From contig CM049308.1 of the NCBI GenBank assembly GCA_026874595.1, positions 16,986,001-17,050,000 on the forward strand: a DNA stretch of 64,000 nucleotides, in the 5' to 3' direction. The notes beneath the pieces are model-generated. The model saw only the letters and a program-made list of their open reading frames with translations. It made no database searches and was not told the DNA's origin. Shown in pieces: positions 4,441-61,460 of the stretch; position 1 is the first letter of the stretch; each line of letters opens with the position of its first letter. The position numbers and the translations under genes were made by a program. Source of the DNA: Sipunculus nudus. Its lineage: Eukaryota; Annelida; Sipuncula; Golfingiida; Sipunculidae.

Positions 4441-4560
4441 AAGGTAGCTGCTTTGGCTGTTGAGATATTTGGTAACAGACGGTGGACGGTGGACAGTTGA
4501 CAGTGGACAGTGGACGGCGGACGCTGCGCCATGGCATAAGTTCACAGAGTGAACTAAAAA
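4441..4560 (+). repeat. Terminal tract and hairpin closing the satellite element
   Basis: The array ends in a GGTGGACAGTGGACGG-type tract, then the hairpin AGTTCAC-AGA-GTGAACT at 4539-4555, then an A run. The same order (GGAC-rich tract, hairpin, A run) closes unrelated repeats at about 22118, 23461, 24366, 50138 and 50945, which suggests a true element end. Confidence 0.7.
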
Positions 4561-22118: not shown

Positions 22119-23463
22119 AAAAATAGAGGTGGCGCACCCAGTCTGCAGAAACTGATGGAACAGGTCATGATCAATATGTATGCCGAAAATCATGACCATC
22201 AGTGTTGTAGTTATTGAGGTACTGCGGTTTTTGTATCAAATTTTCCATTATTCTGGGGGGTAATTTGGAGCCATACAGCTTAAAGAATATGGGTAACAGA
22301 GACCTAATTTCAGGTTTCCATGGAGATTTTTCATGGGTCTCCCTGTGTGTCAAGAATGTAGATTCTAGGTCCAGTTTTAATGATTTGTGCCCTGTTAACA
22401 GATGTTCATAACTTTAAAGGTCTCAAAAATAGAGAAAAAATTCGTAAAAAAACCTGAAAAAATACAGGTGTCTGCAGGAACTGATGAAACACTCCATGAT
22501 CAATATCCATGAAAACAATTATGGTGATCTCTGCATTAGTTGTTAAGATACTTCAGCTTTTGTATCAAATTTTCCATTATTCTGAGCTGTACTTTGGAGT
22601 GCCATAGCTCAAAGGATATGGGTAACAGAGACCTAATTTCAGGTGTCCATGGAGACTTATCATGGGTCTCCCTGTGTGTTAACAATGAAGATTCTAGGTC
22701 CAGTCCTTACGATTTGTACTCTGTTGACAGATAACTACATCCTGAAAGGTCTCGAAAATAGAGAAAAAAAAATTGTGAAAATTTGAAAAAATACAGGTGG
22801 CACCACCAGTCTGCAGGTACCGATGAAACACCTCTTGATCAATATGTATGCCAAAAATCATGACCATCAGTGTTGTAGTTATTGAGATGTTGCAGTTTGT
22901 TTTTATCAAATTTTCCATTATTCTGGGGGGTTATTGGGAGCCCCCCATAGCTCAAAGGATATGGGTAACAGAGACCTTATTTCAGGTTTCCATGCAGACT
23001 TTTTATGGACCTCTCAGTGTATCAAGAATGAAGATTCTAGGTCCAGTCTTTATGATTTGTGCCCTGTTAACAGCTGTTCACATTTTTAAATTCGTAAAAA
23101 ATCGAAAAATTCAGGTGGCGCCACCAGTCTGCAGGAAGTGATGGAACATCTCATGATAAATACTTATGCCAAAAATCATGACCATCAGTCAAGTAGTTAA
23201 TGAGATATTGAAGTTTTTGTATGAAATTTTTGACTTTTCTGGGGGGCACTTTGGGGCCCCATAGCTCGAAGGATATGGGTAACAGAGATCTAATTTCTGG
23301 TTTCCAAGGAGATTTTTCATGGACCTCTCAGAATCCCAAGTTACAAGGTTCTAGGTTCAGCGGTTCCGATTTGTGCCTGGTTAACGGACGGACAGACGGA
23401 CAGACGGACGACGGACAAAGAGTGATCGCTATAGCTCAGATGACTTTCAGTCAGCTGAGCTAA
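22119..23463 (+). repeat. ~330-bp tandem repeat, four units, hairpin end
   Basis: TCTGCAG(A/G)AAC-type phrase at 22143, 22471, 22810 and 23128. Each unit has GGATATGGGTAACAGAGACC and TTCTAGGTCCAG. It ends in a GACGGACAGACGG tract and the same hairpin at 23433-23461. No protein. Confidence 0.9.
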
Positions 23464-25200: not shown

Positions 25201-27004
25201 ACACACATTATTATGCAGATGCATCATCTGCACAGCTGCAGGGAGCCAGGGTGACATCATATCTATTGATGGGGAAAGTGGTATGAAAAGAAGTCCAGAA
25301 AACCTTGAAAAAGCCCATTCAAGCTCTCCCAGCACAGCTAGAGCCTCAGGATGTCCACCATCCCCACCTGTATTGCCAGTAACAGGGTGGAACTATTTCC
25401 ATCCACCAAGATTTCTGCTATGGCAGTATTTATGAGCATATCATCTCATCTGCAAAGTTGGTGAATGTGACTGAAGCCGATGATAGTGATGCGAAGTCAG
25501 ATGAATACAGCACTGAACAACCATTGAAGAAAGGGAGGCAGTACTTTGTCAGGGTAGATGTGACTGAACTTCAAGATACCAGCAGCACTGAACATTATTT
25601 CGTCAAAGCCCTGGTGTGTGCTTCATATGCTAGTACAAACTATCATAGCTGTGTAACTCTGCAAAAGGATGGAAAGACTGCAAATTCATCATGTGAGTGT
25701 AAAGCCTCAGTCATAGGGAGATGCAGTCATATTGCTCAATTATTGTTTGCACTGGAGAACTACACAATCTAGTTTGGACATGAGCAGTTTTCATGCACCA
25801 GCAAGCTATGTAAATGGAATGTTGGCTGGAAGAAAACAAAAAAACCCAAAGTCAGCTCATTCACTTACATACACAAAAAAATGTTTTAAACATTAATGGA
25901 GATGAACACCTGGATTATGCGCTCATTGATGTCTGACAAAAAGAGCTTGGTGAATTGTCAGAAACTTTTCTCAGGGCAAAGGAAAACAGACTCAGGTTCC
26001 AACATACATCAGTTGGCCGGAACAACATGCCAGGCTGATTCCATGGAATGGCACATGGCACAGTGGTTCTGGATAAATGCTTCTAATTGCAAGCAGTTTG
26101 CATCCACAAGATCAGAAAGAGGACTCTATAATTGTTAGTTGTAAACCGTGGGGTGCCACCTTATCCACTCCAGCAATTCAATATGGAAAACTAAATTAAG
26201 CAAAAGCTTTGAACACTTACAGGGACACCCTGCCATGTACTCTGTCAGTGAAGGAAAGTGGGTTTTGGATAAATCCAAGCTATCCTTATTTTGATTCAGT
26301 CCAGATGGCCTTGCGTATGATGAAGATGGCCTTGCTGGACTCATAGAAATGAAATGTTCAGTAATTCAGAAGCATCGCAATCCAATTGAAATAAATAAAT
26401 TAAGTAAGAAGCAGCCAGCTTAGTTTGCTGTAAATGTGTTGACAACAAAATATATTTATATATGCGTGACCATTGACATCGCTGTCATGTTTTTAGGTAA
26501 CTCCAGAAGACATAAAGAATATTGAAATGGCTACAAGGAACCAAGCATCCAGTGCACTGTGGTTCAAGGAACGGAAGTGGCGCCTTACTGCATCTCGGTT
26601 CTACGGACATCATCCATGTGACAGCAGGGAGGAACATGGACAAGTTGTACCATCCCATACTTGAGGCCCCAAAATTATGCACAAACAATTGTACATAGGA
26701 AACAGTACGAACAAGCTGCCATTGAGAAGTTTGAGGAAACTTTTAAACTAAAGGTCACACCCAGTAGTTTGCATATCAGCGCTGAACATCCATTTCTGTT
26801 GCATCTAGGAATGGGCTGATTGGTGATGATGCCATCCTTGAAGTGAAGTGTCCATAAAAAGGGAGACATGACTTGATCAACCCTGGGCCAAATTTCCCAT
26901 TCCTTGACCACTTGGATAAGGAGGTGGTACTTAAAGACTCATAAATACTTGGTGCAAGAGAAGTGTTTATATACTGGTAAATGAATGGTCTAACTTGAAT
27001 ACAG
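25200..27004 (+). pseudogene. SWIM / YqaJ / YqaJ nuclease unit, copy 1
   Basis: An upstream stretch unique to this copy reads GSIYEHIISSAKLVNVTEAD in frame with the body. Then a SWIM zinc finger (CECKASVIGRCSH, C-x-C...C-x-H, about 25694-25733). A first YqaJ-type nuclease follows: MEWHMAQWFWINASNCKQFA, then near 26280 the SPDGLAY and MKCS equivalents of the D...E-x-K site. After an acceptor-like TTTTTAG at about 26495 comes a second, different YqaJ domain (WFKERKWRLTASRF, EKFEETFKLKVTPSSLHISA, ASRNGLIGDDAILEVKCP). Stops and frameshifts are spread through it. YqaJ is the lambda-exonuclease-like fold that digests DNA ends; SWIM fingers often precede it in transposon proteins. Confidence 0.85.
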
Positions 27005-28691
27005 TAGGCAGCTTGGTACCCCTGCTGTGAGGTCACAGGAACCAGCTGATGAAAGTGATGCAAATGCAGATGAATACAGCACTGCAAAACCATTGAAGAA
27101 GGGAGGCAACACATTGTCTGTGGTCATGTGACTGAACTTCAAGATACCAGCAGCACTGAACATTATTTTGTCAAAGCACTGGTGAGTACTTCATATGCTA
27201 GTACAAACTATCATACCAGTGTAACTCTGCAAAAGGATGAAAGATTGCAGCTTCATCATGTGAGTGTAAAGCCTCAGCCAATGGGAGCTGCAATCATATT
27301 GCTGGACTATTGTTTGCACTTGAGGACTACATAATCCAGTTTGGCCATGAGCCAGTGTCAGGCACCAGCAAGCTATGTTAATAGAATGTTGGCTGAGAGA
27401 AACAGAAACGCCCTAAGCCAGCTCAACCACTTACATAGACAAAAAAGCAGCACCAGACAGAATCAAAGTTAACCCACGTCAGCACCCAGCATCATCATCA
27501 GACACAACATTTGAACATCTCTTCTTAGCATCCCTCCCATCAACTGGCAACGAAACTATGTTTGAAACATTAATGGAGATCAAATATAAGGAATATGCAC
27601 TCACTGATGTCCGACAAAAAGAGTTTGATGTATTGTCAGAAACTTTCCTCTGAGCAATGGAAACAGACTCGGGGGGCCTACATACATGAGGTGGCCTAAA
27701 CGACAGGCCAAGCTGATTCCATGGAATGGCACCTGGCACGGTGGTGCCGGATAAATTTTTCCAGTTGTAAGCAGTTTGCATCCACAAGATCAGAAAGAAG
27801 ACTATAATTTGCAGAGGTTTAAACTTTGGGGTGCCAGCTTATTCACTCCAGCAATGCAATATGGAAAACTAAATGAAGCAAAAGCTTTGAACACTTACAG
27901 GGACACCCTGCCATGCACTCTGTCAGAGAGGGAAAGTGGGTTTTGGATAAATCCGAGCTATCCTTTTTTTGGATGCAGTCCAGATGGCCTTGTGTACACT
28001 GAAGATGGCCTTGCTGGACTCGTAGAAATGAAATGTCCAGTATTTCTGAAGGATCACAATCCAGTTGAAATAAATAAATTAAGTCAGAAGCAGCAGGCTT
28101 CATTTTGCTGTAAATGTGTTGACAACAAAATATATATGCATGACCATTGACATCCCTGTCATGTTTTTAGGTTACTCCAGAAGACATAAAGAATATTGAA
28201 ATGGCTACAAGGAACCAAGCATCCAGTGCACTGTGGTTCAAGGAATGGGAGTGGCGCCTTACTGCATCTCGGTTCAAGGGACATCATCCATGTGACTGCA
28301 GGGAGGAACATGGACAAGTTGTACCATTCCATACTTAAGCCCCCCCCCCCCCCCCCCAAATTATGCACAAAGCAATTGTGCATAGGAAACAGTACAAACA
28401 AGCTGCTATTGAGAAGTCTGAGGAAACTTTTAAACTTAAGGTAACACCCAGTAGTTTGCATATCAGCGCTGAATATCCATTTCTGCTGCACCTGGGAATG
28501 GGCTGATTGGTGATGATGCCATCCTTGAGGTGAAGTGTCCATAAAAAGGGAGACGTGACTTGATCAACCCTGGGTCAAATTTCCCATTCCTTGAACCCTT
28601 GGAAAAGGAGGTGGTACTTGGAGACTCATAAATACTTTGTGCAAGAGAAGTGTTTATATACTGGTAAATGAATGGTCTAACTTGATTACAG
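27005..28691 (+). pseudogene. SWIM / YqaJ / YqaJ nuclease unit, copy 2
   Basis: Same order as copy 1, period 1687 bp to copy 3. The first YqaJ site is the best preserved: FGCSPDGLVYTEDG then LVEMKCPVFL, the complete D...E-x-K signature, inside an open frame 27776-28150. The SWIM finger is hit by a frameshift near 27240. An 18-C run at about 28338 replaces the CCCCC of the other copies. The second YqaJ reads APGNGLIGDD, with Asn for Asp. Confidence 0.85.
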
Positions 28692-30380
28692 TAGGCAGCT
28701 TGGTACCCCTGCTGTGAGGTCACAGGAACCAGCTGATAAAAAGTGATGTGTATGCAGATGAACACAGCACTGTAAAACCATTGAAGAAAGGGAGGCAGTA
28801 CTTTGTCAGTGGTCATGTGACTGAACTTCAAGATACCAGCAGCACTGAACATTATTTTGTCAAAGCCCTGTTGAGTACCTCATATGCTAGTAAAAACTAT
28901 CATACCATTGTAACTCTGCAAAAGGATGGAAAGATTGCAGTTTCATCATGTGAGTGTAAAGCATCAGCCATGGGAAGCTGCAGTCATATTGCTGGACTAT
29001 TGTTTGCACTTAAGGACTATATAATCCAGTTTGGCCATAAGCCAGTGTCAGGCACCAGCAAGCTATGTAAATGGAATGTTGGCGGGGAGAAACAGAAAAA
29101 CCCACAGCCAGCTCAAACAGTTACATGGACAAAAAAAGCAGCACCAGACAGAATCATAAAGTTCAACCCACGTCCACACCCAGCATCATCATCAGACACA
29201 GCATTTGAACATTTCTTCATAGCATCCCTCCCATCAACTGGCAACAAAACTATGTTTGAAACATTAATGGTGATCAAATATCAGGATTATGCACTCACTG
29301 ATGTCTGACGAAAAGAGTTTGGTGAATTGTCAGAAACTTTCCTCTGAGCAATGGAAACTGACTCAGGCTCCTACATACATGAGGTGGCCAGAACAACAGG
29401 CCAAGCTGATTTCATGGAATGGCACATGACACGGTGTTGCCGCATGAATTTTTCCAGTTGTAAGCAGTTTGCATCCACAAGATCGGAAAGAGGACTCTAT
29501 CATTTGCTGTGGTGTAAACTTTGGGGTGCCAGCTTATCCACTCCAGCAATGCAAATATGGAAAAGTAAATTAAGCAAAAGCTTTGAACATTTACAGGGAC
29601 ACCCTGCCATGTACTATGTCAGTGAAGGAAAGTGGGTTTTGGATAAATCTGAGCTATCCTTATTTTGGATGCAGTCCAGATGGCCTTGTGTACAATGAAG
29701 ATGGCCTTGCTGGACTCGTAGAAATGAAATGTCCAGTAATTCTGAAGGAAAACAATCCAGTTGAAATAAATAAATAAAGTCAGAAACAGCAGGCTTCATT
29801 TTGCTGTAAATATGTTGACAACAAAATATATTTATATATACATGACCATTGACATCCCTTCATGTTTTTAAGTAACTCCAGAAGACAAAGAATATTGAAA
29901 TGGCTAGTAGGAATCAAGCATCCAGTGCACTGTGGTTCAAGGAATGGGAGTGGAGACTTACTGCATCTCGGTTCAAGGGTCATCATCCATGTGACAGCAG
30001 GGAGGAACATGGACAAGTTGTACCATTCCATACAGAAGCCCCCAAAATTATGCACAAAGCAATTGTGCATAGGAAACAGTACGAACAAGCTGCCATTGAG
30101 AAGTTTGAGGAAACTTTTAAACTAAAGGTCACACCCAGTAGTTTGCATATCAGCGCTGAACATCCATTTTTGTTGCATCTGGGAATGGGCTGATTGGTGA
30201 TGATGCCATCCTTGAGGTGAAGTGTCTATAAAAAGGGAGACATGACCTGATCAACCCTGGGCCAAATTTCCCATTCCTTGAACCCTTGGACAAGGAGGTG
30301 GTACTTAAAGAGACTCATAAATACTTGGTGCAAGAGAAGTGTTTTTATACTGGGAAATGAATGGTCTAACTTGATTACAG
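28692..30380 (+). pseudogene. SWIM / YqaJ / YqaJ nuclease unit, copy 3
   Basis: Longest intact SWIM part: 28748-29308 reads through KPLKKGRQYF, the finger CECKASAMGSCSH and KFNPRPHPASSSDTAFEHFF to a TGA at LTDV. The first YqaJ has a shift between WHMTRCCRMNFSSCKQFA and FGCSPDGLVYNEDG. The second reads WFKEWEWRLTASRFKGHHP through EKFEETFKLKVT, then the shared frame break before ASGNGL. Confidence 0.85.
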
Positions 30381-31921
30381 TAGGCAGCTTGGTACCCCTG
30401 CTGTGAGGTCACAGGAACCAGCTGATGAAAGTGATATGAATGAAAGATGAACACAGCACTGTAAAACCATTGAAGAAAGGGAGGCAGTACTTTGTCAGTG
30501 GTCATGTGACTGAACTTCAAGATACCAGCAGCACTGAACATTATTTTGTCAAAGCCCTGTTGAGTACCTCATATGCTAGTAAAAACTATCATACCAGTGT
30601 AACTCTGCAAAAGGATTGAAAGATTGCAGTTTCATCATGTGAGTGTAAAGCATCAGCCATGGGAAGCTGCAGTCATATTGCTGGACTATTGTTTGCACTT
30701 AAGGACTATATAATCCAGTTTGGCCATGAGCCAGTGTCAGGCACCAGCAAGCTATGTAAATGGAATGTTGGCAGGGAGAAACAGAAAAACCCACAGCCAG
30801 CTCAATCAGTTACATGGACAAAAAAAAGAGGCACCAGACAGAATCATAAAGTTCAACCCACGTCCACACCCAGCATCATCGTTTCAGACAGCATTTGAAC
30901 ATCTCTTCATAGCATCCCTCCCATCAACTGGCAACAAAACTATGTTTGAAACATTAATGGAGAACAAATATCAGGATTATATGCTAACTGATGTCCGACG
31001 AAAAGAGTTTGATGAATTGTCAGAAACTTTCCTCTGAGCAATGGAAACAGAATCTGGTTCCTATATACATCAGGTGGCCAGAACAACAGGCCAAGCTGAT
31101 TCCATGGAATACCACATGACATGGTGGTGCCCGATAAATTTTTCCAGTTGTAAGCAGTTTGCATCCACAAGACCACAAAGAGGACTCTATAATTTGCTGA
31201 GATGTAAACTGTGGGGTGCCAGCTTATCCACTCCAGCAATGCAATATGGAAAACTAAATGAAGCAAAAGCTTTGAACACTTACAGGGACACCCTGCCATG
31301 CACTCTGTCAGTGAAGGAAAATGGGTTTTGGATAAATCCGAGCTATCCTTATTTTGGATGCAGTCCAGATGGCCTTGTGTACAATGAAGATGGCCTTGCC
31401 AGACTCGTAGAAATGAAATGTCCAGTAATTCTGAAGGATCACAATCCAGTTGAAATAAATAAATTATTTCAATAGCAGCAGGCTTCATTTTGCTGTAAAT
31501 ATGTTAACAACAAAATATAATTTCATATGCATGACCATTGACATCCATGTCATGTTTTTAGGTAACTCCAGAAGACATAAAGAATGTGGCTACAAGGAAT
31601 GAAGCATCCAGTGCACTGTGGTTCAAGGAACAGGAGTGGCGACTTACTGCATCTCGGTTCAAGGGTCATCATCCATGTGACAGCAGGGAGGAACATTGAC
31701 AAGTTGTACCATTCCATACAGAAGCCCCCAAAATTATGCACAAAGCAATTGTGCATAGGAAACAGTACAAACAAGCTGCCATTGAGAAGTTTGAGGAAAC
31801 TTTTAAACTAAAGGTCACACCCAGTAGTTTGCATATCAGCGCTGAACATCCATTTCTGCTGCATCTGGGGATGGGCTGATTGGTGATGACGCAATCCTTG
31901 AGGTGAAGTGTCCATAAAAAG
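30381..31921 (+). pseudogene. SWIM / YqaJ / YqaJ nuclease unit, copy 4
   Basis: SWIM finger broken by TTGAAAG near 30615 but otherwise kept. The first YqaJ is open over 31041-31475 (WGASLSTPAMQYGKLNEAKA, FGCSPDGLVYNEDG, LVEMKCPVIL). The second YqaJ is the only one with the acidic residue, ASGDGLIGDDAILEVKCP, then the TAA that all copies share. It joins directly to a fifth fragment. Confidence 0.85.
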
Positions 31922-32060
31922 GGGGAAAGATTGCAATTTCATCATGTGTGTGTAAAGCCTCAGCCATGGGGAGCTGCAGTCATATTGCTGGACTATTGTT
32001 TGCACTTGAGGACTACACAATCCAGTTTGGCCATGAGGTAGTGTTATGCATCATCAAGCT
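31922..32060 (+). pseudogene. SWIM finger fragment, partial copy 5
   Basis: GGAAAGATTGCAATTTCATC then the finger C-x-C (CVCKASAMGSCSH) and ALEDYTIQFGHE. Fused to the end of copy 4 by a deletion; nothing further downstream. Confidence 0.8.
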
Positions 32061-33648
32061 ATGCAGGAGAAGTGGTCAAAGGCTATGGAAACGGACATTG
32101 CAAGGCATGCCACTAACTGCCTGAAACAAGCTCCATGGATAAAAGGGGAGGCAAAATAAAGACATTTAAAATACAATCGAACAAATCCAGCATGCAAAAA
32201 AAAACATTTTTCTTAAAACTTTCTGTACTGTGTACTTGATTCATGCCTTAATTACCAAGCAGGGAGCAGGTCCATAAAGCCATACCATCATGCTGCTGTT
32301 AAGAGTTATACTAGACTGTGCTGAACTCAAGGTTCAGTCCCCTTCCAGCCTAGTATTAAATTCAAAATTGTATTTTTACAACAAGAGTACAACCACCTTC
32401 AAGAGTTTGGTATGCATTGCATCCTCTGCAGCATAACCATGGTGACAGGCATCTTGGACCTTCTTGATAGTGGGGATCAGGTGATGGCGGTTAAGGGGTT
32501 TGTGATCCAAGATATACTCAACAAACAGGGCAGCATGTTGGCTATTCAAAACGTTTAAGCACAAAAGGACCAATTCTCTGGACAGGAGACTGAGCATAAT
32601 GAGAAGATAGCAAATTTGAGAGTACATGTAGAAAGTACATGTAGAAAGGGTGATTCAAGGAATTTCATATCTTTGATTCAATAATTCCCTTGAACTAAAC
32701 CGGAACCTTCATCACACCATGAGAATGTAAGGAAACGCATATATTGCTCTAGTGAGAGCACCTGCCTATACTTCTCCCCTGTATTGCATGCAAATACATG
32801 AAGCGCCCCATGGTCACATAATTTCAGGAAATCATATCAAGATATGCCTAAAACCAGTTTTTTGATGATATTTAGTCATTGGTGAATATGCAAAAGTGCT
32901 AACAAACTGAGCAAATATGGGTAAAGGTCAACCAACAGTTAATCAGTTCGAGAGTCATTATTTGATGCCTTCCACTAAATTAGAAAAAAAATCCAATAAA
33001 AAAAAACCCTCAGTGCTATCGTGCTAACTGACAAACAAAGCCCAAAGTCTACTGTAACTTGGCCTTGAGAGCATAAGTCAAGGTCACAGCACCAGGAAAT
33101 GATACAGAATTATGATGTAATATTGATAGATGCAAGTCTGTAGGAGATATGAGCATTTTAAAAGTGCAGCCACGGACATGGATGCCTACCGGTAAAACAA
33201 TAAGCTCTCTGATGGGGCACTTCAAAATATTTACTTTGCGATGCTGGGAAGGTGTTGCCCCTTCTAGAAAGAGGTGCAAAAATGGTGGCATCAGTTTAAG
33301 TGGCCATATCTGTTTATCAGTGCGATAAAGAGGGACATTTGTATGATGTAACATACAAATGACGTACAAATACCACTGTTATTTTCAACAGTACAAGTTG
33401 CCAAGTGGATGTAAATTTAGTCTGTCATCTAGGTTCGTCACTGATATGTTGCAAGACCACAGACCTCTTTCAGTCATTATTCTTTCTGAATTAATCATTT
33501 GGAATCCATACATAGGAGAATATTATTCTGCTGTAAGATAAAAGCCACATTTGTCTGATTTGCTTCTGGACAAAATAAATGTAATTTATAGTGCATTGTA
33601 AATAAATGATCATGAAAAAACCCAGGTGAACAGGGATACTGGAGGGAG
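32061..33648. other. Mostly non-coding; one possible minus-strand exon
   Basis: Apart from the candidate at 32397-32577, no supportable gene. The minus frame 33049-33369 has no recognised domain. Confidence 0.35.
32397..32577 (-). CDS. Possible exon of an unrecognised gene
   Basis: The minus strand reads ELVLLCLNVLNSQHAALFVE, then YILDHKPLNRHHLIPTIKKV and QDACHHGYAAEDAMHTKLLK, bounded by an acceptor (CTCCTGTCCAG) and a donor (TTGAAG then GTGGTT). Composition is protein-like and helical, resembling an alpha-helical repeat, but I do not recognise the family. It could be a real exon of a host gene lying on the same strand as MCM8, or chance. Confidence 0.35.
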
Positions 33649-37016: not shown

Positions 37017-38735
37017 ATGCATAGAACAAGGCTTAGCAACAAGGACAAACACCCTGGCTTGGCTGTTAGTTTGAAGGATAGCGCATCTTCGTTGAGAAAT
37101 GATCAGCCCAAACACAGGAGTCGCAGACCTACAGCAACATCCACAGAGGAGCAACCTTGCTCATGGGCAGACGGTGAAGCAGACATGGCTTCTTGCATTA
37201 TCCAGATAGAAGTGCAGAATGTGCAGAGCAAGCTTTGCTCCTTGGTTGTGTAAACAGCTCCACACCATCACCAAGTCCATCTGCCGCTAACAATCTGCTG
37301 CCATCACAGAGCTCATCTGTGATGCCGACACCTCCAATAATGTTTCACCTTTCTCTGATTCTGATGATGACACTGATGAGGAATAGATGTCTCTTAGTCA
37401 TCCTTGACTATGCCTCTCGGTCAAGACAAAGAAACAGATCATTGGGAATAAATATGTCCCCTTTGCTTCCTTATGTAAACCTTTATCAGAGAAAGGATAT
37501 ACATTCAAGCTGTCAAATGCTAGTGTATCATTGGCTAAGGCCTCCATCCATGGCCCATCCATGGCTACAGACTGTCCAAGGATGAATGGAATTCAGTCTT
37601 CTTTACCTTTGCAGCAATTTATACCAAGGCTCATCCTTCTTCTGGTCTGGCATTATTCAAGTATGCCCACACCATCAACTCAATGACTGATAAAGGAGTA
37701 GAATAGGTGGTCTTAGACAAGACTTCCACAAGTCGTATCAAGGTCAGGTTGAGGTCCCATGTGGTGACCATCATACTGAACTCTAAAAGCTTTCCGCACA
37801 AAGAACCATCTTACCAACAAATGCCGTGGTAAAGCAAAAATAATCTCCCAACACCGCCAGATCCTGAAGCCATTAATGATTCATTAGTGGGATACAATGA
37901 GTCACATAGGGAATTTTTCATTCTGACTTCAAAATGGTTTTAAATAACCATATGAGGGCCACCATGAATTAAGCTACCATCCCAACCACTTTACTGTCAT
38001 GAATAATATGTCTGGTATGGACAAAGCCATCACTAAGGAATTGGCAATGGGCAGAGCAGCTGGCCCATTTGAAGATCTGCCATTTCAATATTTGCAGATT
38101 TCGCCTTAAGGTTTAGTCCCTTAAAAAGACGCTGGTGAATTTCACATAATACACGATCTTTCATTTCCACTAAGCAGTTCAATCAATGCTCATATTCCAT
38201 GAGAACATTGCACTCTTCAGTATCAACCATTTGGTTATTATTTCTCACAGTTGGGGGATCTAATTGCGACATCCAGTTGTTTGTTGTATGAAGTATGAAC
38301 ATTCCAGGGAAGCACAATATACTTGCTGATTGTTATCTCGTTTTCAGGTTCCTCGGGCACACAGATAGCACCTTGGCTTCAAGACCAACCACTTTGTCTC
38401 CATGCATCCATCTGGCCATAGGGCCAGTATTTGTTTCATTGTTGAAAGCTGCTTTTTCAACAGCCACTCAAACCTTTACAATCAGGTTTACAATAGATTC
38501 AAGTCATTCGTTTTTTCCCCATTTCCAAGAACTGGAACATAAGTCTTTACCTACAGCTGTGCCAGTGATAGCTAGCTATGCTGCATTTTTACATGAGGCA
38601 GGGTATTCCTCTAAGACAATAAGTACTCATATTTCAGCACTAACTTATCAACATAAAATTCAAGGCCATATTGACCCTTCATCCTCCTTTCTCATGGGGA
38701 CAAGGCACCTTAGCCAATCAGTTCCCACTAAATAA
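37017..38735 (+). pseudogene. DIRS/Ngaro-like tyrosine-recombinase retroelement relic
   Basis: Pieces in order: a gag-like start after an AG (HRTRLSNKDKHPGLAVSLKD), a gag core (FFTFAAIYTKAHPSSGLALF, KYAHTIN), and the start of reverse transcriptase (KAITKELAMGRAAGPFEDLP, then LVP and GEFHIIHDLSFP) with two TAA stops where the family has Leu and Lys. An internal deletion removes most of RT/RNase H. The frame 38295-38735 follows: the RNase H tail (NIPGKHNILAD) and a tyrosine-recombinase core-binding domain (VIASYAAFLHEAGYSSKTIS, THISALTYQHK). No recombinase catalytic domain is visible after 38735. The gene order gag-RT-RH-YR is diagnostic of DIRS/Ngaro elements. Dead. Confidence 0.8.
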
Positions 38736-39134: not shown

Positions 39135-39172
39135 CACGTGACGGGCGGTCACGTGTGACTGCCAGTCACGTG
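39135..39172. promoter_or_regulatory. Three CACGTG E-boxes in 38 bp
   Basis: CACGTG at 39135-39140, 39150-39155 and 39167-39172, two of them as GTCACGTG (USF/MITF/TFE-type bHLH-Zip sites). They lie 111-148 bp upstream of the ATG at 39283 of the interrupted SAM-like frame, a plausible proximal promoter. Binding is inference. Confidence 0.5.
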
Positions 39173-39290
39173 ATTTAGTTGTGGTGGGTTGGGATATTTT
39201 CCTGGCTGGGTCATTCGGCAAATCTCAGCCCAGTTGGGCAGACAGAATTTACAACAACTGGCAACCCAGAAAACTGTTTAGGATGGCAAT

Positions 39291-39327
39291 ACGCGACTCC
39301 GGAGATCCCCGATCTTCTGTAGTGGAG
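39291..39327 (+). repeat. Left terminal inverted repeat
   Basis: 37 bp matching the reverse complement of 43966-44002 with two mismatches; contains CTCCGGAG and ATCTTCTGTAGTGGAG. Confidence 0.92.
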
Positions 39328-39373
39328 GTGCGTAAGTGCTGCTGCACCAGCAGGCTTGCGGGCAAAAACAAAT

Positions 39374-41596
39374 ATGGCCGACAGCAACAGTACAGCAGAC
39401 CGATCGTCACCAAATTGTGCCACACATTTTAGCGCTAAGACCATTAAGCAACTGAAAGAATTTCTCACTGCTAGAGGAGTTCAGACTTCGGGATATAAAA
39501 AAGTCCAACTCGTTGAGCTTGCCCAGCAGTCAGAGTGTTTGGACCTGGAACAGATAGACACGGCTGATGACCATGAGGAAAGCCTGGACAAGCGTCAGCT
39601 TGTACAAGGCCCTGATGACCGGGAACACGTACTGCCCCTTATATCTTCTGTTCAGAACTGGGCCGACGATCTAGTAAATTTGCCTCCCATAAAAACTGCC
39701 GATGTCCTAGTTTACCTGCAGACCGTGTGTGGCTGGAGCTCTGAGAGACTTAAAGGTTACAAACAGGATCGGGGCTACGGAATGTGCAGTGACAACCATG
39801 TTGGTAATGTCAAGCTGGGGCTTCTTGCGCAAGAATACGCTTATGTCAAGGGGACATGCCTACCTGAAACCAGACAATCTGCCGAACCTTACTGCGTGTG
39901 GATTCTGGTTAGACTGGATGGCAGGATAGAGTCGGGAGGTTGCAACTGTGTCGCGGGGCAAGTTTATCAATAATTTTAATAAAAATTACTATTTCATAAC
40001 TATTAAGTCCAAACATGTATGCCTTAAGAAAAATGTTGTTTTTGTATTGATCATACTTTAATCACTGAGCACAAATTTTATTCAAATGACACGCTTCAAA
40101 TTCTAGATAGGAAAATACTCTGAAACAATACAAGTTAAAAGAATACTTTATTACATGGCCTACGTCAATTAAAATAAGTTTTTTATTGATTTTCAACACC
40201 CCTCTAAAACAAAACAAATATATTCTGAGGCTGCCTACATGTATATATTATTTAACTCTTTTATTGAAAAATTGAAGTAATATTGTATTGATTTTCAACC
40301 CATCAAATACAAAACTAAAAATATATACACACACACACAAACTCTATATATATACACATTGCAGATGTTTTCATACCTGAGGCTGCCTACATGCACATAT
40401 TATTTGACTTTATTATGGACAAACGAAACGATATTCACAGTATATTTTACTATTACAGCCAAAGCATCAACATATTAATGAACATACATTTATGGTTTAT
40501 TCTATTTCTCTTGTCTTGCAGGGATGGAGGAACATGTAAACACGTGGTAGCTCTACTCTATGCTGTTCAGCAGTTTTGTGAGAGGCACCAAGACCGGCAC
40601 ACAGAAGTTGGAACTGATGTCACATGTAAATGGGACAGGGCAAGAAAACCATCTCGCCCAATGCTGATAAGTGACATTCAAATGACATCTCGAGCTTGTC
40701 CACTACCTATTCCGTCAGTTTACAACCCATGTATAGCACTGACAAAGGATGAAGAGACAGCCATTCAGAATGCAGTGTTTTCTCTCTGCCTCAAGACTGC
40801 ACTGCTGAGAACCCTGACCCCACCACCTGGGGTCACATTTGAACTCCAGCCACCCGCTGTGTTTGATTTGGCAAAGGCATTCAAGCAAAACGAGACAGAT
40901 GAAGGATTCATAGACTATATGAAGAAACACATGACCACACAAAATGTGCAAGAGATATCCTCGTATGAACAAGGAACAGATGAGTGGCACGTTCATAGAA
41001 GTGGTCGTATAACAGCGTCTGTCATGCATACAGTATGTAAAATGCAAAAGCAGTGGAGATCAACACACAGTGCAATCAAAAAGATCTTAGAATGTGTCAG
41101 CACAGACATCAAGTCTCCTGCACTTACCTATGGCAGGGAGAAAGAGCCGATAGCATGTCAACTTTACCAAAATGACAATGAGAAACTACATCAGCAGTTC
41201 AAACTTAAAACATCTGGGCTTGTAGTGAATTTGGAGGAACCATACCTGGGAGCATCACCAGATGGAATTGTGTCATGTAAATGTTGTGGAATAGGAACCT
41301 TAGATATAATATGTTCCTACAAGTATAAAGATATCTCCCCCTCAGAAGTAGCTGCTAAAGAAGATTACCACATTAAAGTTACAGCTGATGGAGCTGTGAG
41401 TCTGGACACAAGTTCACCATGGTATTATCAGATTCAAGGTCAAATAGGAATCCTAAAACTTGACTGGTGTGACTTTGTACTGTACACTGAAAAGGGTCTC
41501 TACTGTCAGAGAATATCGTTTAACCAGACCCTGTGGAATGACATTAAAGAAAACTGCAAACAGGTATATGAAACCTGTATTGTACCTGAGCTGTAA
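39374..41596 (+). CDS. SAP-SWIM-YqaJ nuclease-like protein of the transposon (two exons)
   Basis: Exons 39374-39957 and 40522-41596 give a 552-residue protein. The ATG at 39374 (ATATGGCC) is the first in frame. Domains: SAP-like DNA-binding helix pair near residues 20-50 (IKQLKEFLTARGVQTSGYKK, VQLVELA); SWIM zinc finger around 195-210 (CNCVAG, then DGGTCKHVVALLYAV), split by the intron; YqaJ/lambda-exonuclease-like domain in the C-terminal half (EQGTDEWHVHRSGRITAS, YGREKEPIA, YLGASPDGIV). The intron has a GC donor (GGGCAAGT) and a TTGTCTTGCAG acceptor. The catalytic Asp in SPDG is kept, but the E-x-K step reads LDIICSYKY where relatives have LEIKCPYKY, so Glu is Asp and the key Lys is Ile. 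AATAAA at 41608-41613 lies just after the stop. Family role: end-processing nuclease supplied with the transposase. Probably catalytically impaired here. Confidence 0.85.
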
Positions 41597-41658
41597 AATT
41601 AAAGTGAAATAAAACAAATTATACACTGAAGTGATACATTTGCTGCATATTTAAGCGA

Positions 41659-42941
41659 CTATTTCTTAACCAGAGGGGGTAGGAAATTGCACAGAGCAGC
41701 AGCAACAGTTATTATTTGGTTTGCTACAGACTGTAAGCCCGAGGGCATAACCTGATTTAATAATCTGAAGTTCTTGAGCCTTTCAATAGCTCTTTCCACA
41801 TGGATTCTTAATTTTGCTATGGACCGCGTCTTGTAAATTTCTTGAACATTTAACCTTTTATTTTTACCCCATATACATTTCCTTGTAAAGGGAGGCATAT
41901 TCAGTGTGGCCTGATGTTTAAGGAGAAGATCTTTAATAGTAAAACCCCTGTCTGCCATTACATCACCTCCAGGTTGAAGTAAATCTAGAATCCCACTTTC
42001 TTTAGTGATGTATCTGTCAGATACATCCCCCCCCCACAAATCTGAAATAAAGCTGAAGGTTCCCTGTGGTGTTACACCAATCAATGCTTTGTATGCGTTG
42101 TGTGATTTGTATTGGCTGTATGTAGTGGCTTGTGCTGAAGGTGATCTTGGTCGTTGTATGTAAAATTCACTGCAATCAATGATTACTCTTGTGTTGGGGT
42201 ACTCACTCTTAAAGTTGGGTGGCATGTACTTGTTAATCATGTCCCTGGAAGGCCATACAATAAGTGGTTTCAACAGTGTGTGCATCAAATTAATCCAGGT
42301 AATAAATACACTGGAAGCTGTGGAATCTGACACACCAAACAAGTCCTCAATGACAAATCCCAACAACCCTAACCTGACCCTAACTAAGGTCATGAGGAAC
42401 TCCTCAAACCTTGTAAGCTCTCTCTGTGGACCAGGCTTTTCTTGCTGCAACGAGTTTGATACCCCTTTGGGTCTTTACTAGAACCTTGTGTCAAATATTT
42501 AATTTTTGGCTCAGAACTATCAATAACCTTGAAGAGTCCAATCAAAGTGTCCCTGTTAGGCAAACCGGTATACTGCCGCACTGATCGATCACTCTCTGTA
42601 ACCATTCCCACCACAAGTTCCCTCCGTAGTGCTGCCCTGTCTGACAATTTTGTCTGCAGGTATGCATTTTCATCTGCCAACTTCTTGTATGATGCCTCCA
42701 TTTCATTGAACTTTACCAGGTCAACATCTGTTTGCACTGCCATGTCCCTGGTCATTGGTTTGTCCGAAGACCCCTGCCCTGGTGAGTACTGGTGATCCGT
42801 AGATGGAGCCATGCTTGGGATGACCGCTAAAATGAAGAAAAATAATCATAGTACACATGTATATTCATCCTAATAACTGGTTTGTGTGTGTGAGCTGATA
42901 CTACAAAAGTATAAAATAAATAAATATTCACATGCATGTAT

Positions 42942-43001
<60 letters not shown>

Positions 43002-43831
43002 TCATATTTTTAAGCTAATGTATAATATAAGTGTACCAGCTTATATACAAATTATACTCAAAAGTTAACAAAAAAGTACTTATATATAAATTTGTATATA
43101 CACTATATATATAGTACATATATATATATATATATTTGAACATATATATATATTTGTAAATACAGATCATGACATGCTTTAATATACTAATCCTGACACA
43201 GATAAATAGCTGTGCAGCAGTATTCACGGCTCTGGACCTATACTATAGTCACTTTGTAATTTATATACATAAAATACATATTATATATACACTTGAGCAA
43301 AAATTAAATATACTATATTAACAAGCTTAAATATCAATTTGACTTACATGGTTCTGATCTGTTTGAGTTTTCAATCACAAATTCTCCCGCAACATATGGG
43401 TATCTTGCCTCAGCAGGTAAAATTGTTTCGCTGACAATGGTGACTCTGGGATGCACTGATGTCGAACTTGGTGACTGACAGCTGTGATGTTCATGGACTG
43501 ACGACTGATGCGACTCACATTTGTTTATCGAGGCTGGCGATCGTGTACTCACAGGCAACTTATAGTTGTTGTAACTGAACAGTTCTGGTATTGGATGACT
43601 TTCTGTCGGACCAGCGTTGTCCACAAAATGCATTGAGTAAATCCTTGTATGGCGATTTGGCACCCTTGTCGGCTCTCTATGGACCATCCGTATCCACTGA
43701 TTGAGAAGAACTCGATCTTTCAGCGGAAACTTGTGGAGGGTAACGTGTCTCATCCATGGATATTTCTGGAGATTATCCTTCTTCCTGCTATCTGCCGAAC
43801 AGTCCTACGAACAACAACGGTATCCTGGCAT
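41659..43831 (-). pseudogene. THAP-DDE_Tnp_4 transposase (two exons, three lesions)
   Basis: Exon 1 (43831-43348) starts MPGYRCCS, then an in-frame TAG at 43807-43805 between the first zinc cysteines, then FPLKDRVLLNQWIRMVHREP and RIYSMHFVD. THAP needs Cys where Tyr stands in RIYSMHF. Donor CCAT then GTAAGTC; 521-bp intron with a (TA)n tract; acceptor CATTTTAG at 42828-42827; exon 2 continues in phase with VIPSMAPSTD and a coiled-coil-like segment (FNEMEASYKKLADENAYLQT). At about 42460 the frame must change by -1 at AAAGGGG to reach LTRFEEFLMTLVRVRLGLLG, a helix-turn-helix (LFGVSDSTASSVFITW) and the DDE core: D in VIIDCSEF, D in VMADRGFTI, E in HVERAIERLKNF, all kept. So the catalytic core is sound and the DNA-binding N-terminus is broken. 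A programmed -1 shift, or a sequencing slip in the G run, cannot be excluded. Confidence 0.85.
42943..42998. repeat. (TA)n microsatellite in transposase intron
   Basis: About 28 TA units; a further TA-rich tract lies at 43102-43160. Confidence 0.95.
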
Positions 43832-43965
43832 ATTCAAGCGATAACAAATGACAGAGCAATGGACAAGGCGAATCAAGCGACGGCCATCTTTGTTTTTGCT
43901 CGCAGTGACACTAGCTATAGGGGCGCACCTGCCGGCGAAAGGCAGCAAACGGGGTGACATTTTGT

Positions 43966-44002
43966 CTCCACTACAGAAGATTGGGGATCTCCGGAGCCGC
44001 GT
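43966..44002 (-). repeat. Right terminal inverted repeat
   Basis: Reverse complement of 39291-39327 with two mismatches, followed by AT. Confidence 0.92.
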
Positions 44003-44378
44003 ATTCAAGAGAATGCGCCTCCATTATCGCCCGCAGAACAAATTAAAGCCTGGGCTGAGGAGCACATGATAGATGTGGCTTCAGTTGATCTACTTGCCAA
44101 ACATGGATTCACTTCTATCCAAGCCTTACAGCTACTGGAGGCAGAAGATCTTCCTCTGAAACTGCCAAGAGGGCAACAAAAGTTAATTCTGAAGGAAGTT
44201 GGCTTGCTCCCAACAGTAGTTATGGGGTGGTAGCTACTAAAGTGTTTGTACTTGATGACCTTAGGAGTGCACCCGTCCCCGTCCCCGGGTTTGTTTACAA
44301 ACAAAGGGTTGTTGACCTGGCGGGGCTGAGCGGTAACTGGGTCAAGTGGAACATCTGGCCAACTGGGTCAACAGGCAT

Positions 44379-47500: not shown

Positions 47501-48969
47501 GACAGTGAATCTGAGGAATTCCCCCCAAACGGACAAGGCTCTCTTCGGGGAAGCCCACCTCATACCCCAACGCCCTCTGACGATGAGGAGGTGAGTTAAA
47601 AATTTAACTGTTTGTTTTTTGTTTGTTTGTTTTGTTTTTTTGTTTTTTATGCATTGCCATCAACAAAACCACATAACCTCATGCAGTATGTGATTGACAA
47701 CATGACGTAAATGACGGGCGGGCGATTTTTTTTTTTCCATTGAAAATCAAAATACAAAAATTTTGGCGTGGGCGGTGCCTGAGAATCAGGCATTTTATTT
47801 ATTTATTTATTTTTGGGCTAATTATTTCTCCTGTCTTTCTTTTTTTAGCTGGACAATGGGCAAGGGTCTCCATGGGGAAGCCCCCAACAACCCTCAGCGC
47901 CTTCTGACGATGAGGAGGTGAGTTAAAAATTTAACCGTTTTGTTTTTTGTTTTTGTTTTTTGTTTTTTATGCATTGCCATCAACAAAACCACATAACCTC
48001 ATGCAGTATGCGATTGACAACATGACGGTAATGACGGGCGGGCAATTTTTTTTTTTTTTCATTTAAAATTAAAATACAAAAATTTTGCCGTGGGCGGTGC
48101 CTGAGAATCAGGCATTTTATTTACTGATTTATTTATTTATTTTTTGACTAATTATTTCTCCTGTCTTTCTTTTTTTAGCCGGACAATGGGCAAGGGTCTC
48201 CACTGGGAAGCCCCCACCAACCCTCAGCGCCTTCTGACGATGAGGTGTTTCAAAAATTTAACTGTTCTTTTTTTTTTGTTTTTTGTTTGTTTGTTTTGTT
48301 TGTTTGTTTTTCATGCATTGCCATCAACAAAACCACATAACCTCATGCAGTATTTGATTGACAACATGACGTAAATGACGGGTGGGCAATTTTTTTTTTT
48401 TTTCATTTAAAATTAAAATACAAAAATTTTGGCGTGGGCGGTGCCTGAGAATCAGGCATTTTATTTATTTATTTATTTTTGGACTAATTATTTCTCCTGT
48501 CTTTCTTTTTTTTAGCTGGACAATGAGCAAGGGTCTCCATGGGGAAGCCCCCAACAACCCTCAGCGCCATCTGATAATGAGGAGGTGAGTTAAAAATTTA
48601 ACCGTTTTTTTGTTTTTTTTGTTTTTTGTTTTTGTTTTTTGTTTTTTATGCATTGCCATCAACAAAACCACATAACATGACGGTAATGACGGGCGGGCGA
48701 TTTTTTTCTTTTTCTTTTTTCATTTAAAATTAAAATACAATAATTTTTAGCGTGGGCGGTGCCTGAGAATCAGGCATTTTATTTATTTATTTATTTATTT
48801 ATTTTTGGACTAATTATTTCTCCTGTCTTTCTTTTTGTAGCCGGACAATGGGCAAGGATCTCCACAGGGAAGCCCCCACCAACCCTCAGCGCCCTCTGAC
48901 GTGAAGCGTCGTGAAGCACAAAGTAGTCGAGCCCTCAACGCTTACTTCGCACCTCAAGCAAGGCGTGAG
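47501..48969 (+). CDS. C2H2 gene, exons 3-7: tandemly duplicated 69-bp exon
   Basis: Exons: 47501-47590, 47849-47917, 48179-48244, 48516-48584, 48841-48969, all phase 0-0, each after a T-rich acceptor ending in TAG or CAG. Exons 4-7 read [L/P]DN[G/E]QGSP[W/L/Q]GSP[Q/H]QP then SAP and an acidic SD(D/N)EE end; exon 3 is a diverged version (PNGQGSLRGSPPHTPTPSDD). Donors are GTGAGTTAAAA except after exon 5 (48244), where GAG is missing and the donor is a weak GTGTTT; that exon may be skipped. Exon 7 extends into a basic tail (VKRREAQSSRALNAYFAPQA) ending at GAG then GTAAGA. The frame stays open across any subset, since every unit is a multiple of three. Confidence 0.7.
47501..48969 (+). repeat. 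Exon-plus-intron tandem duplication, ~330-bp period
   Basis: Exon starts at 47849, 48179, 48516 and 48841 are 330, 337 and 325 bp apart. The introns match too (CATTGCCATCAACAAAACCA, GACGGGCGGGC, GGCGGTGCCTGAGAATCAGG, ATTTATTT runs of varying length). The unit copied is therefore exon plus whole intron. Confidence 0.93.
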
Positions 48970-49084: not shown

Positions 49085-50945
49085 GTGTCGGAACGACACG
49101 AATGCCCCCGCCTGGGGCAAATTAGAAACATTTGTTAAATTTTGTAAAATTTTTTAAGTTCAGGAAGTGTTGTATGGTTAAAAGTAGGTCAACAAGGGCA
49201 AAATGGAAACTTGATCTGTAAAGGGTCATTATCAAGCAACACACCAAAAATCAGGCCAGTATCTGCAGGCATTGTGAAAAAAAGTCCATATATGTGCATT
49301 TTTCATGAAAATTTCTGTCTTTCATGAAATTTTCTATGTTCAGGATCTGTCATATGGTGAAAAATAGGTTAACTGGGACGAAACGCGAACTCGATCTGTA
49401 AGTGGTCATTATGCGCCCACAGACCAAACATTAGGCCAGTATCTGTAAGCATTGCATTGCGAAACTAGAATATTAGCAAAAGTTGATAATCATTTTTAAA
49501 TTTAAATTGGAGAGGTATATACCATGTTTCGTAACAATCCACCAAATGCTTCCTGAGAAATAAGCTCCTAAGTTTTTTTTCTATACTAAGCTCTGTGAGC
49601 TTGAAAAGTAGGTCAAGATCACCCATCTTGAACTTGACCAAGATTTTGTAAATATAATGCAATAACACTGAAGAAATGAAGTTCCTGTGTTGAATACCTT
49701 TGGAGATATCCTGCACAAAAGGCCAAAATTGAAAAATCAGATAAAATTTCATTAAAAAATCAGAAATTGCAGGTGGCGCCACCAAAATTGTGCAGCACAT
49801 ACAGACCATCAGTCCCAATGATCATAGTAAGTTTTGTGAAAATCCACACAATGGTTCCTGAGATATAAGCTTCTGAGTGTTTTTCTATAATCAGCTCTAA
49901 AATGTAGAAAAATGGGTCAAGGTCACCCATCTTCGAACTTGACCGAGATTTTATCGATATACATCTTCACTGATGAAATAAAATTCCAACGGTGAATCCT
50001 TTTAGAGATATCCCACTCACAAGGTAAAAGTTAACAGACATGGAACGGACGGACGGACAGACATACACCGGACCAACAGATGGACAGACGGACACCTTGG
50101 GTGACGACAATAGCCCATCAGCCTATGAGCTGAGGGCTAAAAACAACTGTACATGTGTATTTGTCATAAAAATTTCTATTTTTCATGAATTTTTCTAAGT
50201 TTAGGAGCCGTAAAAAGGTCAAAAGTAGGTCAACCGGGACGAAATGCGAACTCGATCTGTAACTGGTCATTATCTGTCCACACACCAAAAATCAGGCCAA
50301 TATCTGCAGGCATTGCGAAAAAAAGTCCGTACATGTGTATTTGTCATGAAAATTTCTATTTTTCATGAATTTTTCTAAGTTTAGGAGCCGTAAAACGGTC
50401 AAAAATAGGTCAACCAGGACGAAACGCGAACTCGATCTGTAACTGGTCATTATTTGTCCACACACCAAAAATCAGGCCAATATCTGCAGGCATTGCGAAA
50501 AAAAGTTTGTACATGTGTATTTGTCATGAAAATTAATATTTTCATGAAATTTTCTAAGTTTTGGAGCCATAAAACGCCCAAAATAGGTCAATTGGGACGA
50601 AACGCAAACTTGATCTGTAACTGGTCATTATCTGCCCACACACCAAAAATCAGGCCAATATCTGCAGGCATTGCGAAAAAAAGTCCGTACGTGTATTTGT
50701 CATGAAAATTTATATTTTTCATGAAATTTTCTAAGTTTAGGAGCCGTAAAACGCTCAAAAGTAGGTCAACCGGGACGAAACGTGAACTCGGTCTGTAACT
50801 GGTCATTATCTGCCCGAACACCAAAAATCAGGCCAATATCTGCAGGCATTGCGAAAAATGTCCGTACAACTGTTTGATTTCGGAATGACGGAATGACGGA
50901 CATGGGTAAAACTATATGCCCCGGCCACTTTGTGGCAGGGGCATA
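49085..50945 (+). repeat. ~179-bp tandem repeat element with hairpin at both ends
   Basis: The left end has GTGTCG-GAA-CGACAC (49085-49099) and TGCCCC-CGCCT-GGGGCA (49103-49119); the right end has TATGCCCC-GGCCAC-TTT-GTGGC-A-GGGGCATA (50915-50945) then AAAAAA. TCTGCAGGCATTGCG-type phrase recurs at 49262, 49442, 50303, 50483, 50661 and 50839. It is interrupted by the element at 49455-50143. It lies in the last intron of the C2H2 gene. Confidence 0.85.
49455..50143 (+). repeat. Nested hairpin-ended repeat inside the 179-bp element
   Basis: Breaks the host phrase GCATTGCGAAA...GTACATGTGTATTTGTC. It has two ~300-bp units with GGTGGCGCCACC and GGTTCCTGAGATATAAGCTT, a GGACGGACGGACAGAC tract near 50045 and the hairpin AGCCC-A-TCAGC...GCTGA-G-GGCT at 50112-50138, then AAAAA. 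Confidence 0.8.
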
Positions 50946-60347: not shown

Positions 60348-61460
60348 CAGTCGGACCCTTCTAATCCGGCCTTCGATAGTCCGGCATTCGGCGTAAACCG
60401 GCACATTTCTTGAGAACGGATTTCCCACATTATATTTTTAGGTCGTAATCCGGCTTTTTGCGTAATCCGGCTCTGGCACAATTACCGAGAACCAACATCC
60501 CTATTTATGATAACCATCATCTACGTAATCCGGCACGCCTCAGTGACTTCCCCGCCGGTGAACATCAAACAGCTCACTGCCGGTCATGCATAAGTCGCAC
60601 CCCCAATCAGACATGAAAGAGTGTATTGGTCTCGCTTGTTGATTGCAAACATAAACAATGTGTCAATGTTGAGTAGATTTAATCATTGTGTTTATGTTTG
60701 TTACTTGTTTTGATTCTATGTAATTATGTTTAAAGTGACTTCAAAGAACAAACAAACTAAAAAGAGTGAAAAATTAAAGATTTTTATGCCTATAAATACT
60801 GCAGTGATTAAAGAGTATTTATTATCGTCATTGACATACGCCAGCTATACCGAAACGAAAGCGCTGTGAAATCAATGTTTCTCTGAAGAGAAACATCTGC
60901 CTCTACAAAGAAAAACACCCAAAGGTGACACAGAGAGACATCGTGGGATGGGTTGCTACTGAACACAAGATTGACATTGGTCGTCAGACTGTGTCAGACA
61001 TACTGTCAATCAAAGACAAGTGGCTGAAAATGGATGAAAGCACAGACACAGTGAAAAGGATGAAAATGGGCAAGCATCCACAGCTGGAAGAGGCATTGAC
61101 ACTATGGTTGAAAGACATTTTGGCACATGGAGCGATTGTTTCCACTGACATTCTCCCTGAAAAAGCAAAAGAGCTAGGACAGCAACTGGGGATCACTGAC
61201 TTCCAATACTCGAATGGATGGATAGATAGGATGAAAGCACGAGGTGGCATCAAACAGCACGTCATGCATGGTGAATCAGGGAGCGTAGACCAACAAGTCG
61301 AATCAAAGGGTCGAAGTGACATTCAAGCAGCACTTGTCGGATACAGTCTTTGCAACATTTTCAATTTTGCTGTGGGTGTCCCTGATACGTAATCCAGCAA
61401 ACTGCGTAATCCGGCATGATTCCTAATCCCCGATGGTGCCGGATTAACGGGGTCCGACTG
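60348..61460 (+). mobile_element. pogo/Tigger-like transposon, internally deleted
   Basis: Begins CAGTCGGACCCTTCTAATCC and ends GGATTAACGGGGTCCGACTG, flanked by TA at 60346-60347 and 61461-61462. These are Tc1/mariner-pogo type ends and target site. 1113 bp, much shorter than a full Tigger; encodes only the N-terminal DNA-binding part of a transposase. Confidence 0.9.
60853..61392 (+). pseudogene. Truncated Tigger transposase (CENP-B-type DNA-binding part)
   Basis: The frame KRKRCEINVSLKRNICLYKE, KHPKVTQRDIVGWVATEHKI, DIGRQTVSDILSIKDKWLK is a CENP-B N-terminal/Psq-type helix-turn-helix. A second HTH of the Tc5/CENP-B kind follows: HPQLEEALTLWLKDILAHGA, LGITDFQYSNGWIDRMKARG. It ends YSLCNIFN then an unrelated tail and TAA, exactly where full transposases continue into the first DDE Asp. 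So the whole catalytic domain is deleted. No clear ATG opens the frame; TGA lies upstream. It might still bind the ends as a repressor if expressed, which is speculative. Confidence 0.8.

Follow-up and report, generated by a model that had tools for sequence, protein, structure and literature searches.

A probable full-length, decayed ISL2EU transposon in Sipunculus nudus, with a broken THAP transposase gene facing a gene for a SAP-like, SWIM and YqaJ domain protein

In the genome of Sipunculus nudus (GenBank assembly GCA_026874595.1), two spliced genes face each other between inverted repeats at positions 39291-44002 of a 64-kb stretch of contig CM049308.1 (positions 16,986,001 to 17,050,000 of the forward strand; this whole stretch is called the window below), which raises the question what kind of element this is and what a nuclease-like gene does beside a transposase gene. 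A preliminary description, made from the sequence alone, took it for an ISL2EU-type transposon, combining a THAP transposase with a YqaJ protein, and the gene pair, the domains and the flanking AT dinucleotides agree with that proposal. We put the probability at about 90% that 39291-44002 is a full-length, decayed two-gene copy of an ISL2EU element, a member of the PHIS superfamily.

The element measures 4712 bp. Its terminal inverted repeats (TIRs) have the length of 37 bp given in the preliminary description (39291-39327 on the forward strand and 43966-44002 on the reverse strand) and are identical at 35 of 37 positions; a 36-nt TIR pattern has no third occurrence in the 64 kb at up to 3 mismatches (100 shuffles gave an expectation of 0), and a search for copies of miniature inverted-repeat transposable elements (MITEs) in the window yielded no further 16-mer of the TIR at up to 2 mismatches. 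The AT reported on both flanks is present at 39289-39290 and 44003-44004, GGCA-AT preceding the element and AT-TCAAG following it, so that the context reads A/AT on the left and AT/T on the right, as expected of a target-site duplication (TSD). Between the repeats, gene 1 on the forward strand (39374-39957 joined to 40522-41596) and gene 2 on the reverse strand (exon 1 43831-43348, a 521-nt intron, exon 2 42826-41659) converge with 62 nt between their stops, close to the 60 bp or so that had been noticed at first sight.

According to the published classification (PMC4482050), ISL2EU elements duplicate the AT of a target A/AT/T and carry one open reading frame (ORF) with THAP, helix-turn-helix (HTH) and DDE domains together with a YqaJ ORF; autonomous members have a mean length of about 4840 bp, and their TIRs measure 6-259 bp and usually start with GG. 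Because the target site, the gene pair, the domains and the lengths (4712 bp and 37 bp, both within range) fit these published criteria, we file the element under ISL2EU, an assignment that is well supported on the criteria tested, and regard it as a new family. It differs from the published type in the SAP-like and SWIM parts of its YqaJ protein, which PMC4482050 does not mention, in being defective, and in TIRs that begin with AC (ACGCG) instead of GG, the latter being a typical trait and not a defining one. PIF/Harbinger elements resemble it in that their transposase is related and an accessory ORF accompanies it (PMC4482050), but Harbinger makes 3-bp TWA duplications and its second protein is Myb-like.

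These ends occur elsewhere in the genome (1.43 Gb, 153 contigs). A search with a 61-nt query, made up of the start of the element and three bases of its flank, scored 40 places out of 77 candidates, a lower bound; at least 39 further genomic places besides the window copy therefore have these ends, and the lack of any other such copy, which the preliminary description had named as grounds for giving up its proposal, is not what was found. Twenty regions were fetched, in which 22 of these 39 places lie (these and further loci are designated by L numbers); among the remaining 17, seven were seen as 3-kb loci only. Of the 20 loci fetched, 18 have both ends; L040 and L047 have left ends only, and the first of two copies in L041 has no recognised right end. 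The two left ends of that locus (L041:503 and L041:5018) have the same orientation, lie 4515 bp apart and each follow an AT run, which would suit the duplication of a larger segment. Among the 18 two-ended copies are three MITE-like units of 368-381 bp and fourteen units of 1.3-1.75 kb, the latter mutually 95.8-98.9% identical (mean 96.9%) and 71-76% like the left end of the window copy. L031, of 2243 bp, is a deletion derivative that is 94% identical in its retained parts; hardly anything of the nuclease gene is left in it. The fetched loci contain no second full-length copy of exactly the window family, and when the genome was searched with the nuclease protein, the next match spanning the entire nuclease exon, among those scored, was just 53% identical.

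The flanks of the 18 two-ended copies bear on the insertion mode. AT adjoins all 36 ends and is preceded by A at 34 of them, position -4 being mixed; the triplets AAT and ATT are complete at 16 copies, and in the other two the outermost base differs at one end (TAT, read outward). Spy elements insert into AAATTT without a TSD (PMC4482050), and one might accordingly think of a Spy-like branch inserting into AATT without duplication, with AAT and ATT as halves of a split target or as part of the ends; with these triplets at 16 of 18 copies, the flanks alone cannot tell a duplication from fixed ends. We nevertheless consider such a branch very improbable. Spy has a single ORF, whereas the gene pair found here is that of ISL2EU; AT is invariant where the outermost triplet base varies at one end in two of the 18 copies; the flanks are AAT and ATT with a mixed position -4 and not AAATTT; and the frame joined across the insertion site is longer with exactly one AT dropped (125 codons against 79). 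The flanks of the window copy, AATA...TATT, are palindromic, so that a TA repeat would formally be another reading, and the AT reading is preferred on account of the other copies and of this longer frame.

The joined frame deserves a word of its own: an open frame at 39142-39290 and 44005-44233 (MAIQENAPPLSPAEQIKAW...) resumes once the element and one AT are omitted, and Pfam, at a cut-off of E 0.1, gave no match for the small protein that it encodes. Some observations pull away from the ISL2EU assignment. The ACGCG start is unusual for the type, the flanking AAT and ATT could be either a duplication or a fixed part of the ends in these copies, and 79 of 2000 random joins are crossed by a frame as long as the 125-codon one, for which reason we count the junction frame as weak support.

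Could two unrelated genes have come to lie between MITE ends by chance? The sizes of the other copies would suit this explanation, as 17 of the 18 two-ended copies measure at most 1.75 kb and the three short ones that were read (L033, L034 and L048) have no frame longer than 96 codons. It is hardly conceivable and in effect refuted by the relatives of the nuclease gene elsewhere in the genome, where the same convergent gene pair recurs independently. The nuclease exon has at least 115 genome matches (114 of 261 candidates were scored), and a YqaJ gene converges on a DDE gene in five of the relatives read: L051 with L047, L052, L054, L059 and L061. The first of these, L051 with L047, is decayed and 59% and 47% identical across the two exons, and L052 is likewise decayed (51-56% identical); both have a matching THAP part, while the THAP end of L054, L059 and L061 falls outside the stretches read. 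In L054 the YqaJ frame is open over 571 codons, and the DDE frame opposite it is open over 290 codons, as far as the edge of the fetched stretch. In L053 DDE pieces occur in both orientations, and in L055 no DDE match was found within the 4 kb read.

The window itself holds pieces of a second ISL2EU-like family at 25475-32132, where decayed SWIM-YqaJ pieces are repeated in tandem in about four units of 1.69 kb, to which the open gene in L054 is similar by eye; a DDE remnant follows the array at 32302-32786.

Gene 2 encodes a transposase with Pfam matches to DDE_Tnp_4 (1e-43), HTH_Tnp_4 (1e-12) and THAP (1e-7). On the reverse strand, exon 1 (43348-43831) holds the THAP domain, and exon 2 (41659-42826, stop at 41659-41661) holds a linker, HTH_Tnp_4 (42265-42420) and the DDE_Tnp_4 catalytic domain (41686-42180), in which D, D and E are present by eye. 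The THAP domain is broken: it contains an in-frame TAG at 43805-43807, and at 43637-43639, where THAP1 and THAP2 have their third zinc ligand in the alignment, it has a Tyr codon. A reading-frame shift lies in the stretch 42390-42474. L031 has a THAP domain without the stop and reads through the shifted stretch, with Trp at the third ligand and breaks elsewhere; since this 94% identical relative has neither the TAG nor the frameshift, both count as damage to the window copy. The apparent frameshift might also have been an intron of the GT-AG type (one of 83 nt, found by eye, would keep the phase), an idea rejected because L031 reads through the stretch. With the TAG, the lost zinc ligand and the frameshift, the transposase is lost in the window copy, from which, judging by its sequence, a full protein cannot be made. 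A search of the PDB with the DDE part gave no match up to E 10, and neither the DDE part nor an alignment used as query had a confirmed relative among the viral contigs.

The domains of gene 2 also speak to the possibility of a KolobokE-like element, from another DDE superfamily that has a lambda-exonuclease-like nuclease. We regard this as extremely unlikely, given that the transposase matches DDE_Tnp_4 and HTH_Tnp_4, a combination which we take to be of PHIS type, that the flanks are AT and not the TTAA which Kolobok elements duplicate, and that the nuclease is a separate, convergent gene here, whereas in KolobokE it lies downstream of the transposase domain. What the two share is a DDE transposon equipped with a nuclease of the lambda exonuclease kind, as described in PMC9587614.

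Gene 1 has an open frame of 552 amino acids. On the forward strand, exon 1 (39374-39957) contains a SAP-like (helix-extended-helix) motif at 39428-39529 (residues 19-52) and the first half of a SWIM zinc finger, CxCx7CxH, which is split by the intron (39941-40543, residues 190-202); exon 2 (40522-41596, stop at 41594-41596) contains the second half and a YqaJ or lambda-exonuclease-like domain at 40982-41389 (residues 349-484). The intron of 564 nt (39958-40521) is of the GC-AG type and is the sole one of the enumerated in-frame donor and acceptor pairs that keeps the SWIM ligands at normal spacing; L047 has, by eye, a GT-AG intron at the identical position. In Pfam, YqaJ is matched at 7e-13, while in the full protein SAP (0.007) and SWIM (0.012, 15.5 bits) both stay under their gathering scores. 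Excised segments pass for SWIM (PF04434; 20.4 and 20.6 bits against a gathering score of 19.6). The profile searches suggested in the preliminary description thus returned THAP, HTH_Tnp_4, DDE_Tnp_4, YqaJ and, in excised form, SWIM, with SAP below its cut-off.

For this reason we speak of a SAP-like motif, and a number of results caution against the two added modules. The excised SAP segment (PF02037) reaches 21.7 bits and fails against a gathering score of 23.9, and whole-protein Pfam scans of four relatives (L053, L054, L055 and L056) at E up to 0.05 detected SWIM in none and SAP in one, L056 (0.042). Predicted structures have a low confidence (predicted local distance difference test, pLDDT) of 46 for exon 1 alone and 37 for exon 2 (with four window fragments). 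None of eight shuffles of the SAP segment matched SAP, but three matched another family at E up to 1 (best 0.001), which makes Pfam E-values on such short queries noisy. In a PDB profile search with four N-termini a Mu-like gp35 came first (0.012), followed by mostly unrelated entries and the Tho1 SAP domain at 0.32, and the SWIM segment gave two PDB matches, both with E above 1.

The recurrence of both modules in other YqaJ genes of the genome argues for them. L053, L054, L056 and L059 carry the CxCx7CxH ligands, whereas this pattern gave no match in the stretches tested of L052 and L055; three of four segments excised by the ligand pattern match Pfam SWIM. The window copy, L047, L052 and L056 have the SAP-like start in common, and with a cut-off of E 0.1 Pfam SAP is matched in three of four related N-termini, the best value being 0.0003. 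The preliminary description had pointed to the fusion of SAP and SWIM to the nuclease as not known to have been described. The modules are no peculiarity of this element and recur in YqaJ genes of other families; going by ligand pattern and excised segments, they look like a general feature of the second proteins in this genome. YqaJ fusions with SWIM or SAP are probably common in protein databases. Among the literature matches listed there was no published description of YqaJ with SWIM or SAP. The main texts of PMC4482050 and PMC9179366 mention YqaJ and neither SWIM nor SAP. A different addition is seen at the C-terminus of L055, a PHD-like finger (E 0.001, under the gathering score), and inspection by eye shows a comparable Cys/His tail in L053; these YqaJ genes with a C-terminal PHD-like finger (L055:1537-2949 and L053:1513-3189) have counterparts of equal frame length and near-equal score at further genomic places.

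Does the nuclease still work? Its core is homologous to lambda exonuclease (1avq, 3sm4 and 4wuz; best PDB E 4.5e-5), and 99 phage records match it in tblastn at E up to 0.001; comparison of the gene 1 protein with the collected genome contigs and viral contigs gave no confirmed relative outside the genome. In lambda exonuclease, D119 and E129 hold the metal and K131 activates the water (PMC6199318), the offset of two against the 1avq chain numbering being our own reading. A phmmer alignment to this enzyme retains the Asp of the SPDG motif, but the ExK motif has Glu replaced by Asp and Lys by Ile: the window copy has LDIICSY (41300-41320, forward strand) for LELKCPF, that is, E129 to D and K131 to I. 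Apart from its extra SAP-like and SWIM parts, the window protein thus differs from the phage YqaJ nucleases in having no catalytic Lys and in having Asp for Glu, and from its sequence it is probably no longer functional as a nuclease. The claim of a structurally complete transposon consequently holds for the outline of ends and genes and fails for the proteins, with a transposase broken in three ways and an altered nuclease active site.

Alternatively, the YqaJ protein of this lineage could be a nuclease-dead DNA-binding partner, comparable to the Myb-like protein of Harbinger, with D-x-I as a family trait and not a sign of decay. The 552-amino-acid frame is open beside a decayed transposase, and Han et al. 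describe the product of the second ORF as DNA-binding (PMC4482050), both of which would suit this idea. ExK is retained, however, in all eight relative loci compared (L047, L052, L053, L054, L055, L056, L059 and L061, of which L056, L059 and L061 count as one family), including the nearest ones, L047 and L052, and also in three array copies inside the window. Some of these ExK relatives are decayed elsewhere (altered SPDG in L052 and L061, several stops in L047), and because they belong to other families they do not settle the ancestral state of the window family. On balance we think a nuclease-dead lineage improbable and keep to decay.

For ISL2EU elements with intact genes, the following course may be imagined from the family to which they belong. 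The THAP and HTH parts would bind the inverted repeats, and the DDE domain would excise the element and join it into A/AT/T, which would yield the AT duplication. The YqaJ protein would most likely act as an accessory DNA processor, brought to transposon or target DNA by the SAP-like motif and the SWIM finger, and in some families the PHD-like finger may aid its tethering to DNA or chromatin. Like lambda exonuclease, the nuclease would resect a DNA end in the 5' to 3' direction, and processing of the donor break after excision would favour repair from the sister copy. That this is indeed its role we put forward tentatively, from domain homology, as a possibility well short of even; trimming of ends or help with integration, as suggested in the preliminary description, would be other possible roles. 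The nucleases of ISL2EU and KolobokE may have been acquired independently; if so, both groups would seem to gain from a nuclease that acts on DNA ends. As for the window copy, its ends could at best be moved by proteins encoded elsewhere in the genome.

A nuclease gene travelling by itself was encountered among the relatives. One unit of 2663 bp, the flanking AAT and ATT counted, occupies four places with unlike flanks (L056:841-3503, L057:413-3075, L058:388-3050 and L060:307-2969), with 12 variable positions across the four copies and inverted ends of about 63-73 bp. Its gene has a stop-to-stop frame of 566 codons, full length in three of the four copies and shortened to 486 in L060, with the SAP-like motif, SWIM, YqaJ and ExK present; no DDE match was found within the unit (L056). 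L059 is 98.9% identical to the unit over its first 2003 positions; beyond these it has an open DDE gene (DDE_Tnp_4 4e-42) that can be followed for 389 codons, up to where the fetched stretch ends, and 55 nt separate the two stops. Most simply, the unit would be a deletion derivative of a two-gene element, and since it kept the nuclease gene alone, it needs an outside transposase and was presumably moved by one from elsewhere. A search with its first 120 nt gave 90 candidates, of which at least 40 genomic places were scored. Six are identical, and five of these were fetched; the remaining 34 are 93-96% alike, with one at 88%; L061 and L062 were read among these.

Only four of the 12 differences fall in the ORF of the unit, fewer than expected from its 64% share of the length (one-sided p 0.03). 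This is only a hint of selection, as the sites are few and the sequence outside the ORF may differ in make-up, and the open frame by itself is no proof of it, because the copies are near-identical. It remains an unlikely, though attractive, extension that the SAP-SWIM-YqaJ protein is a selected, trans-acting ISL2EU partner and that labour is divided in this genome, the nuclease-only units having been moved very recently by the transposase of two-gene relatives such as L059; if true, it would give a first indication that carrying the nuclease is of advantage to a piece of DNA.

The rest of the window holds other repeats and relics. Two alike, decayed DDE fragments of a further family lie about 2.27 kb apart (7195-7656 and 9464-9982), neither having a YqaJ match in its neighbourhood. 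An ORF at 38292-38735, a short way upstream of the element, has a weak likeness to a phage integrase N-terminal domain (E 0.06) and is possibly the tail of a tyrosine-recombinase retrotransposon, and an ORF at 60835-61392 with a DNA-binding domain of the Tc5/CENP-B type (E 4e-12) is a further DNA transposon relic. Long tandem arrays extend over 40-4480, 15848-16991, 22141-23385, 47611-48899 and 50149-50868, with periods of about 340, 278, 329, 344 and 180 bp, respectively.

The role of the second ISL2EU ORF was given as unknown in 2015 (PMC4482050), the authors of a 2022 study knew of no proof of ISL2EU activity before they reported expression (PMC9179366), and at least one genome paper (PMC7826175) filed YqaJ genes as 'endogenous viral elements'. 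Our findings suggest that YqaJ genes in animal genomes may be transposon parts. The domain make-up of these YqaJ proteins and the nuclease-only units are parts that specialists may not expect, and with near-identical nuclease-only copies and a closely related two-gene copy in one genome, it becomes directly testable whether the nuclease helps transposition, and whether it does so in cis or in trans.

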